NCBI RefSeq assembly: GCF_017994015.1
Contig: NZ_JAGOLP010000017.1
Location: 1-64,000, forward strand
Length of the DNA stretch: 64,000 bases
Source of the DNA: Ferrovibrio sp.
GTDB lineage: Bacteria; Pseudomonadota; Alphaproteobacteria; Ferrovibrionales; Ferrovibrionaceae
Direction of reading: 5' to 3'
Positions 63-2,181 of this stretch are shown one piece after another. Under the pieces are notes generated by a model. That model was not told the DNA's origin and searched no databases. It saw only the letters and a list, made by a program, of their open reading frames with translations. Positions within the stretch are counted from its first letter, which is position 1, and each line of letters starts with the position of its first letter. A program made the translations under genes and the position numbers.

Positions 63-737
63 TCAGGCTGCTCTTGCCGTTGCCCCGGTCGGTGATCTGG
101 AAGATGCGCCCGGCTGGTTTTGGCTGCGGAGCGGGCTGACATGGAATTTGCGCATGTGGCTGCGCACCGGTGCGCCCTGTTGCTGTGCCAGCGCCAGATG
201 ATCGATGGCATCGGCCCACAAGCGGTGCTGGCGCCCATCGGGCCATACCATCGGCTGCGGCCCATCAAGGCGGATGGCGGCGATATCGTCGCCGACAAAA
301 CCTGCACCGGCCTGGCAGAGTGCGGCGGCCAGGGTGGATTTACCGGCGCCGGTTGGTCCGCAGAGGGCGATGGCGCGGCCTTGCCAGGCCACCGTGGCGG
401 CATGCAGGGCCAGCAGGCGCCGCTGATGCAGGATGGCGGCAAAGCCGGTAGACAGGATGAAGGGGGCAATATCGGCTTCACTGGCAGCGCCCTTCGGCTC
501 CACCACGATCTCCCGGCCATCATCAGCCATCAGCCGCGCAATTCCCGGTATATCCAGGTAAAACCGCCGCCCGGTCAGGCGCCAGTTGGGACCGGTATAA
601 TCTGTAGGGGTCGGTTCGTCCGGGCAGTTTCCGAGCCGTATCACAACATCCGGCGGTGCCGTGGACGCAGCAATCGGCTGACCTCCGGGTAACGGAATAC
701 TTGTGGCCACCGACAGGCCACAGATCAGGTATTGCAC
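63..737 (-). CDS. HPr-kinase-like protein of a lasso-peptide locus (probably frameshifted)
   Basis: The protein resembles the small HPr-kinase/phosphorylase-like kinases found in lasso-peptide clusters, where the paeninodin enzyme phosphorylates the C-terminal Ser of the precursor. A Walker A loop GPTGAGKST lies near residue 127, preceded by LLALHAATVAWQGRA, and a GDD motif follows near residue 149; both are typical of the fold. The start is GTG at 737, 21 nt after the precursor gene, so the two probably share a transcript. After KFHVS (about position 137) the frame runs into a low-quality Ser/Arg/Ala tail and stops at 63. Shifting frame there gives APQPKPAGRIFQITDRG and stays open to position 1, which looks like the genuine C-terminal part. 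A one-base deletion, or a sequencing error, at about 130-138 is therefore likely. The true gene end may lie outside the window. Confidence 0.75.
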   Translation of the reverse strand: MQYLICGLSVATSIPLPGGQPIAASTAPPDVVIRLGNCPDEPTPTDYTGPNWRLTGRRFYLDIPGIARLMADDGREIVVEPKGAASEADIAPFILSTGFAAILHQRRLLALHAATVAWQGRAIALCGPTGAGKSTLAAALCQAGAGFVGDDIAAIRLDGPQPMVWPDGRQHRLWADAIDHLALAQQQGAPVRSHMRKFHVSPLRSQNQPGASSRSPTGATARAA

Positions 738-758: not shown

Positions 759-926
759 TTACGACCCGGTGCCTGGTGATGCTTCGGTGGAATGTTGATT
801 TGGTTTGCCCTCGGTCAGGCTGTGGATGCTCTGGTCGCGGATCGCCGGCTTGGTCCAGGTTTTCAGCGCCGGCTTGCTCCAGGTCTTCTTGGTCGAGAGC
901 TGTTCGTTATTGTCCATCTCGCCCAT
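759..926 (-). CDS. putative lasso-peptide precursor, 55 aa
   Basis: This small ORF starts at ATG 926, with GGGA 8 nt upstream, and ends 21 nt before the kinase gene. A second ATG at 917 would give 52 aa. Residues 15-28 contain two copies of a W-x-K-P-A-(L/I) motif (TWSKPAL, TWTKPAI), resembling the YxxPxL leader element that lasso B1/RRE proteins bind. The leader would end in LTE, with Thr at position -2. The predicted core is GKPNQHSTEASPGTGS: Gly1 and Glu9 could form a nine-residue macrolactam ring, and the last residue is Ser, the residue phosphorylated in paeninodin. The maturation genes (B1, B2, C) are not visible and should lie to the left of the window. Recognition rests on motif and neighbour only, so other RiPP classes remain possible. 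Confidence 0.6.
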   Translation of the reverse strand: MGEMDNNEQLSTKKTWSKPALKTWTKPAIRDQSIHSLTEGKPNQHSTEASPGTGS

Positions 927-1107: not shown

Positions 1108-2181
1108 ATGTCCAAATCCGCCAAGTTGCCGGCAGCGCGTCGCAAGGTCGCCGGCTCACGTTCTGTTGCCGCCAAGGCAGCGCCAGCCACGCGCAAATTG
1201 CCGGTGGGCGATATCGCCGTGGCGCGGCGCGTGTTGCTGACCGAGGCCAAGGGCCTGACCGTGATGGCGGCCGGGCTGAATGGCGATTTCAGCCGCGCGC
1301 TGGATGTGCTGGCCCGCGTTGGCGGCGAGGGCGGGCATGGCCGCGTCATCGTTTCCGGCATGGGCAAATCCGGCCATGTGGCGCGCAAGATCGCCGCCAC
1401 CATGGCCTCCACCGGCACGCCGGCAATGTTTGTGCATCCGGGCGAGGCCAGCCATGGCGACCTGGGCATGGTGATGCCGGGCGATGCGCTGATCTGCCTG
1501 TCCAATTCCGGCGAGACCAAGGAACTGGCCGACCTGATCGCCCATGCCAAGCGTTTTGCCATTCCGCTGATCGGCATCACCGCCAAGGCGCGCTCGGCGC
1601 TGGGCCAGGCCAGCGATGTGGTGCTGGAATTGCCGCCGGTGGAAGAAGCCTGTTCCATCGGCATGGCGCCCACCACTTCCACCACCATGATGCTGGCGCT
1701 GGGCGATGCCCTGGCGGTGGCCCTGCTCGACCGCAAGGGTTTCACGCGCGAGGATTTCCACAATTTCCACCCCGGCGGCAAACTCGGCAGCCAGTTGGTG
1801 AAGGTGAAGAACCTGATGCATACCGGGCCAAGCCTGCCGCTGGTGCCGGTTGGCACCGGCATGGGCGAGGCGCTGGTGATGATGACTGGACGCAGCTTTG
1901 GCTGCATCGGCATTGTCGGCAAAAGCGGCCGCGACAAAGGCCGCCTGGTCGGCATTGTCACCGACGGCGATTTGCGGCGCCATATCGGCAACGACTTGCT
2001 GTCGCGCCAGGTGGAGCAGGTGATGACCAAGGCGCCGGCCGTGATCGGCCCCAACCTGCTGGCCGGCGAAGCGCTGCTGGAGATGAACAAGCGCCGCATC
2101 ACGGCTTTTTTTGTGGTGGATGGCGGCAAGCCCATCGGCATCCTGCACATGCATGATTGCGTGCGCGCCGGATTGACCTGA
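1108..2181 (+). CDS. kdsD: D-arabinose 5-phosphate isomerase
   Basis: The enzyme interconverts ribulose 5-phosphate and arabinose 5-phosphate, the first committed step of KDO synthesis for LPS. The 357-aa protein has an N-terminal SIS domain with GMGKSGHVARK and SNSGETKEL, and a C-terminal pair of CBS domains ending in GILHMHDCVRAGL. That layout and length match the KdsD/KpsF family. The ATG at 1108 follows AGGA, and upstream in-frame sequence lacks family similarity. It is the first gene of a run leading into lptC, lptA and lptB, as in many Alphaproteobacteria. The product acts in the cytoplasm. Confidence 0.95.
   Translation: MSKSAKLPAARRKVAGSRSVAAKAAPATRKLPVGDIAVARRVLLTEAKGLTVMAAGLNGDFSRALDVLARVGGEGGHGRVIVSGMGKSGHVARKIAATMASTGTPAMFVHPGEASHGDLGMVMPGDALICLSNSGETKELADLIAHAKRFAIPLIGITAKARSALGQASDVVLELPPVEEACSIGMAPTTSTTMMLALGDALAVALLDRKGFTREDFHNFHPGGKLGSQLVKVKNLMHTGPSLPLVPVGTGMGEALVMMTGRSFGCIGIVGKSGRDKGRLVGIVTDGDLRRHIGNDLLSRQVEQVMTKAPAVIGPNLLAGEALLEMNKRRITAFFVVDGGKPIGILHMHDCVRAGLT

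Follow-up and report, generated by a model that had tools for sequence, protein, structure and literature searches.

The window, which is the whole stretch of 64,000 nucleotides analysed here, begins at a contig edge (position 1 is the first base of contig C78, G000:C78:1), and its left end carries a short ORF, an incomplete HprK-like kinase gene and a divergent kpsF-like gene (Table 1). The ORF at 759-926 on the minus strand was translated as MGEMDNNEQLSTKKTWSKPALKTWTKPAIRDQSIHSLTEGKPNQHSTEASPGTGS followed by a stop, and either the first ATG (926) or the ATG at 917 could be its start codon.

Table 1. Features at the left end of the window.
Feature	Position	Strand	Basis
Lasso-type precursor peptide gene (A), 55 aa and stop	759-926	-	Translation, orthologues, coding-type substitution pattern
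Predicted leader, residues 1-39, ending SLTE, Thr at -2	810-926	-	Register common to 45 precursors
Predicted RRE-binding motif WTKPAI, residues 24-29 (W -16, P -13, I -11)	840-857	-	Sequence and literature motif
Predicted core GKPNQHSTEASPGTGS, Gly1-Glu9 macrolactam, Ser16 candidate phosphorylation site	762-809	-	Register test
HprK-like peptide kinase (K), incomplete; homology to the G004 kinase spans 737 to about 107 only	63-737	-	Clade with the kinases of G004 and G057
Kinase His112	402-404	-	Sequence
Kinase P-loop GAGKST	333-350	-	Sequence
Kinase Asp-Asp (Asp150-Asp151)	285-290	-	Sequence
Contig-edge sequence without match to the kinase or anything searched; assembly artefact or true disruption	1-107
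kpsF-like sugar isomerase, divergent chromosomal neighbour outside the cluster, marking the insertion site	1108-2181	+	SIS and CBS domains

Conservation of the precursor gene and the contig edge

The frame of the precursor stays open for about 1.4 kb farther upstream, more than 500 codons antisense to kpsF, which would suit a chance ORF, and the length of the ORF is thus no evidence of a real precursor gene. An orthologue with 87% identity was found in G004, a member of the same genus, at the same place beside kpsF, and another with about 56-58% identity (58% over residues 4-55) was found in Hyphomicrobiales bacterium UR115 (G057), on a closed replicon of 801,789 bases (CP131057.1) where no kpsF adjoins it. 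Both orthologues were adjoined downstream by the same HprK-like kinase. Between the window and G004, amino-acid changes fell in 2 of the 39 codons of the leader and 5 of the 16 codons of the core; few changes in the leader and more in the core are the usual pattern of RiPP precursors. Because it is conserved in G004 and UR115, the ORF was confirmed as genuine, and the reading as a chance ORF was refuted. The earlier note had described a 55-residue ORF directly before an HPr-kinase-like gene, and both parts were borne out, with the correction that the kinase gene is incomplete. Plasmid searches gave matches in UR115 and one Thalassobaculum. The precursor scored 9.1 bits (E=1) on the NCBIfam model of the paeninodin-family precursor (NF033524, PadeA), under its cut-off of 27 bits. 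A PqqA identity was rejected, since the Pfam match was weak (E=0.01) and limited to 10 residues of the leader, the part in which PQQ and lasso leaders have a motif in common (PMC13381572).

The kinase ORF was 86% identical to the G004 kinase until about position 107, where the homology ended, and about the last 90 kinase residues appear to be missing or replaced. Its matches to HprK_rel_A (E=3e-11) and Hpr_kinase_C (E=3e-4) were both far under the curated cut-offs, and it reached 42-43 bits on the HPr-rel-A system model (TIGR04352) against a cut-off of 200. The set of His, Lys, Asp and Asp reported to be catalytic in lasso kinases (PMC9266682) is retained as His112, the P-loop Lys and Asp150-Asp151. 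The window kinase grouped with the kinases of G004 and G057 (clade support 100/99), and the kinases of G332 and G068 formed the sister clade (99/95). A role in anti-phage defence was rejected, as PADLOC gave only weak P-loop matches to the kinase.

Since the contig edge cuts the kinase, no cluster gene other than the precursor and the partial kinase lies in the window, and the rest of the cluster, to the left, was read from relatives. The first 107 nt had no match in the window's own genome, in plasmids or in Pfam. When the G004 DNA past the kinase was searched in the window's assembly, which is 87% complete, only weak paralogue matches were obtained, and rnd, which bounds the G004 cluster on its far side, was absent as well. 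A remnant from a dead cluster would agree with the kinase disruption near position 107 and with the absence of the other cluster genes from the assembly; the loss of the flanking rnd together with them makes an assembly gap the better reading, and the left side is best treated as such. A true disruption of the kinase at the contig edge is possible, and the gene could then be inactive in the window's genome. Taken together, a chance or remnant ORF is very improbable.

In each of the 11 members of the genus or family that were searched, lack the cluster and gave a kpsF, this gene and rnd are immediate neighbours, and the G004 cluster sits exactly between these two genes (L079:6165-13356; window junction near 930-1108). 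Among ten genomes of the genus, the precursor was found in the window's genome and G004 only, suggesting that the cluster between rnd and kpsF was acquired by transfer or lost repeatedly.

Orthologous clusters and kinase neighbourhoods

The clusters of G004 (L079) and UR115 (L080) have the same order: precursor, kinase, sulfotransferase, PqqD-like B1, convergent AsnB, ATP-grasp protein and two oxygenases. Pfam matches were obtained for Sulfotransfer_1 (E=1e-27), PqqD (E=5e-24), Asn_synthase (E=7e-29), ATPgrasp_ST (E=2e-24) and, in one oxygenase, 2OG-FeII_Oxy_3 (E=4e-17); the second oxygenase is without Pfam match and was assigned from its HxD...H pattern alone. The PqqD protein matched lasso_PqqD_Bac with E=4e-22, under the curated cut-off, and its best PDB match was a lasso PqqD chaperone (E=4e-14), with TbiB1 also matched. 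AsnB was closer to lass_lactam_cya (E=2e-58) than to asparagine synthase (6e-36), and the lasso cyclase NCBIfam model was its closest model at 198 bits, against a cut-off of 525. The sulfotransferase carries the usual PAPS-binding motifs YPKSGNTWLR and RDPRDVAVS, and in G004 its gene and that of the kinase overlap by 4 nt. The earlier note had proposed sequencing to the left of position 1 for B1, B2 and C genes; in the orthologous clusters B1 and C were present within 5 kb, and no B2 (PF13471) was found.

A scan of genome contigs with the kinase alignment yielded no more than six loci. Kinase relatives were gathered from 385 genomes of the class and from other loci, and the neighbourhood set comprised 62 kinases. 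PqqD was found near 52 of them, AsnB near 46, a sulfotransferase near 39 and B2 near 26.

Tandem triple phage-tail-collar (PF07484) proteins were seen beside 12 kinase-linked lasso-type clusters (L015:14489-17109, L082, L085, L086, L087, L088, L105, L125, L131, L132, L134 and L143), with a DUF6916 protein in 9 of the 12 and a GNAT acetyltransferase in some. The module also occurs in Azospirillum sp. TSH100 (NZ_CP039640.1, about 131-141 kb, L165) and can be found without lasso genes, sometimes adjoining giant surface-protein genes.

Leader, core and register

The leader contains the motif [Y/W]xxPx[L/V/I...], which is bound by lasso B1 proteins (PMC13381572) and has also been given as YxxPxL (PMC10368454). 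Short ORFs near kinases or cyclases with [WYF]xxPx[hydrophobic] were collected as motif ORFs, and a C-terminal Ser was strongly over-represented among them (47 of 133). The register rule sets the start of the core 16 residues past the aromatic residue of [W/Y]xxPx(I/L/V/F). It was applied to 45 precursors near related kinases, the window and G004 included, and Asp or Glu stood at core positions 7-9 in 41 of the 45, against a mean of 11.6 in shuffled cores (maximum 21, 2000 shuffles); the set was partly selected for terminal Ser and many of its members are related to each other, so these counts are not independent events. Thr stood at -2 in 23 of the 45 and Gly at core 1 in 20. With the register moved by one residue, no more than 33-34 precursors had the acid and 10 or 3 had the Thr, and among the 86 motif ORFs without terminal Ser only 10 had an acid at core 7-9.

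The window precursor fitted the register fully, with T(-2), G1, E9 and Ser16, and the boundary between leader and core, Thr(-2), Gly1, Glu9 and C-terminal Ser named in the earlier note thus agreed with the 45 precursors. In the window subfamily the leader was much better conserved than the middle of the core, Lys2 and the ring Glu were conserved, and every member retained the C-terminal Ser. Thr(-2) and a Gly, Ala or Ser at core 1 were kept in the precursors of the window, G004, G057, G332 and G068; the leaders of G332 and G068 read IRDQ[SA]IKSLT, and their cores begin with AK and have the acid at position 8.

Other cores were observed near the related kinases. The related cluster of G021 (L081, G021:C1:574000-590000) has Ala at -2 and the core SKSTPTEGGTTSGPGS. 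The family ITNCGSGxDGVIC...S (L015:12233-12415, L088:7805-7987 and L128:7976-8161) would, by the register, start with Ile1 and close on Asp9, with a possible Cys4-Cys13 disulfide. The core NGLVAPGD...GS (L123:10636-10992, L130:12207-12413 and L139:5255-5419) would start with Asn1, and such a start was first reported for metanodin (PMC12670498).

The kinase and the RRE logic are shared with the Linear Polyphosphorylated Peptides (LPP) of Bacillota, in which an HprK-like kinase and an RRE likewise act on a small precursor, and the product could be a linear phosphopeptide of this kind, on which the kinase acts and no ring is formed. LPP clusters have neither B2 nor macrolactam cyclase and use a SpI-type peptidase (PMC13381572), and the orthologous clusters have no B2 either. 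The lasso-cyclase-like AsnB in these clusters, its presence near most of the related kinases and the retained ring acid at core 7-9 make a linear product highly unlikely.

Leader peptidase and the proposed system

B2 was located elsewhere in the genomes of the window (G000), G004 and G057. UR115 has two kinase loci and one B2, near 630 kb of CP131057.1 and about 225 kb from the cluster on the same replicon. Six kinase loci were counted in the window's genome, together with two B2 genes, of which one belongs to the C32 cluster and the other comes after an ABC exporter of the peptidase-C39 type and an HlyD gene. Three genomes from a single genus (G050, G178 and G275) each gave at least 6 kinase matches and one B2, which was beside none of the kinases. 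The clusters of G332 and G068, in the sister kinase clade, have B2 close by. A genome with several scattered clusters and just one or two B2 genes is less familiar, and so is the sulfotransferase beside 39 of the 62 kinases. Across the 385 genomes, B2 was present in 24 of the 26 that bear the kinase and in 11 of the 359 others (Fisher p about 1e-27, kinship among genomes ignored). Given its absence from the relatives' clusters, B2 is probably provided in trans by one or two copies in the genome, as its co-occurrence with the kinase also suggests, and the leader-cutting enzyme that the cluster lacks may come from another locus.

The exporter-linked B2 of the window's genome lies in an apparent operon (G000:C32, L013:5506-9522) in which the peptidase-C39 ABC exporter and the HlyD gene precede the B2-type peptidase. 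Of the clusters found in this genome, a single one has a B2 itself, and it lies about 60 kb away.

The absence of B2 would also fit a related RiPP that is not a lasso peptide, whose leader stays or is cut by another protease and in which the AsnB-like enzyme links side chains, for example those of Lys2 and Glu9, or forms another amide. G004 and G057 have clusters without B2, and a whole-genome search of G021, a complete genome, found no PF13471 gene, although its related cluster retains precursor, PqqD, AsnB and kinase; Lys2 is conserved throughout the window subfamily, G021 included, and in the sister clade. Such a product is unlikely, as the five precursors named above retain Thr(-2) and a small residue at core 1, and B2 lies close to the G332 and G068 clusters and somewhere in nearly all kinase-bearing genomes.

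The ORF at 759-926 probably encodes the precursor of a lasso peptide of the phosphorylated type, within the alphaproteobacterial HprK-kinase kind. The earlier reading as a lasso-peptide precursor was supported, with the threaded ring and the phosphorylation standing as predictions. Gene conservation, the cluster content of relatives, the sequence register and the co-occurrence of B2 were observed, and from these we infer every chemical step. The PqqD-like B1, which would be encoded to the left in the unassembled part, would bind the leader motif WTKPAI, and the HprK-like kinase would phosphorylate Ser16. The B2 protease would recognise Thr(-2) and cleave after Glu(-1), then the AsnB-like cyclase would close the ring around the tail by linking the amine of Gly1 with the side chain of Glu9, giving a predicted ring GKPNQHSTE and a tail ASPGTGS. 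This tail has no bulky residue, so a stable thread is not obvious. The PAPS-type sulfotransferase, the two 2OG-Fe(II)-type oxygenases and the ATP-grasp protein would probably add further modifications.

The kind of system is already known from paeninodin, in which an HprK-like kinase attaches phosphate to the C-terminal Ser of the still linear precursor, and from SyanA, where such phosphorylation is repeated (PMC8498205, PMC9266682). SyanA and SyanK of Sphingobium yanoikuyae, which give a polyphosphorylated lasso peptide, likewise combine a proteobacterial HprK-like kinase with an adjacent Ser-ending precursor (PMC8498205, PMC9266682); a different core family is expected here, the SyanA sequence lying outside the comparison, and SyanB2 was reported for that system, whereas B2 is missing from the orthologous clusters of G004 and UR115. 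Paeninodin of Paenibacillus (PadeA, PadeK) also has a kinase, a discrete B1, a cyclase and a C-terminal Ser as phosphorylation site (predicted here), but its core and phylum are different, and the orthologous clusters lack an ABC transporter and B2. The Bsf lasso peptide of Bradymonas sediminis comes from a kinase-bearing cluster with discrete B1 in another Gram-negative bacterium; BsfK phosphorylates ring Ser3 and Bsf has Ile at -2 (PMC10368454), whereas the window precursor has Pro3 and Thr(-2). In the cluster of pseudomycoidin, a phosphorylated and glycosylated lasso peptide, a C-terminal Ser kinase is likewise joined by a second transferase (PMC8498205), which is a nucleotidyltransferase there and a sulfotransferase here. 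A sulfotransferase in lasso clusters of Firmicutes has been mentioned earlier (PMC8498205). No description of this core family, of a B2-less cluster or of the sulfotransferase partner was found in the literature compared, which left out the original SyanK report.

Tentatively, some Alphaproteobacteria may have a distributed phospho-lasso system, in which many scattered clusters share one or two leader peptidases encoded outside them and a sulfotransferase adds a second modification. Each cluster would typically have its own precursor, kinase and B1, and often its own cyclase; in the window's genome, the shared peptidase would partly stand in line with the peptidase-C39-type exporter. The modification by the sulfotransferase would be an undescribed one, possibly on or beside the phosphorylated C-terminus.

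As read here, the window precursor gives the phosphorylated lasso peptides a further, distinct core family, and with the simple register rule kinase-linked precursors can be found, of which many are probably unannotated. If B2 acts in trans, searches that demand B1, B2 and C together would miss many such clusters, and the sharing of one protease among B1 proteins becomes testable. The sulfotransferase beside most such kinases points to a modification undescribed for proteobacterial lasso peptides in the literature compared.
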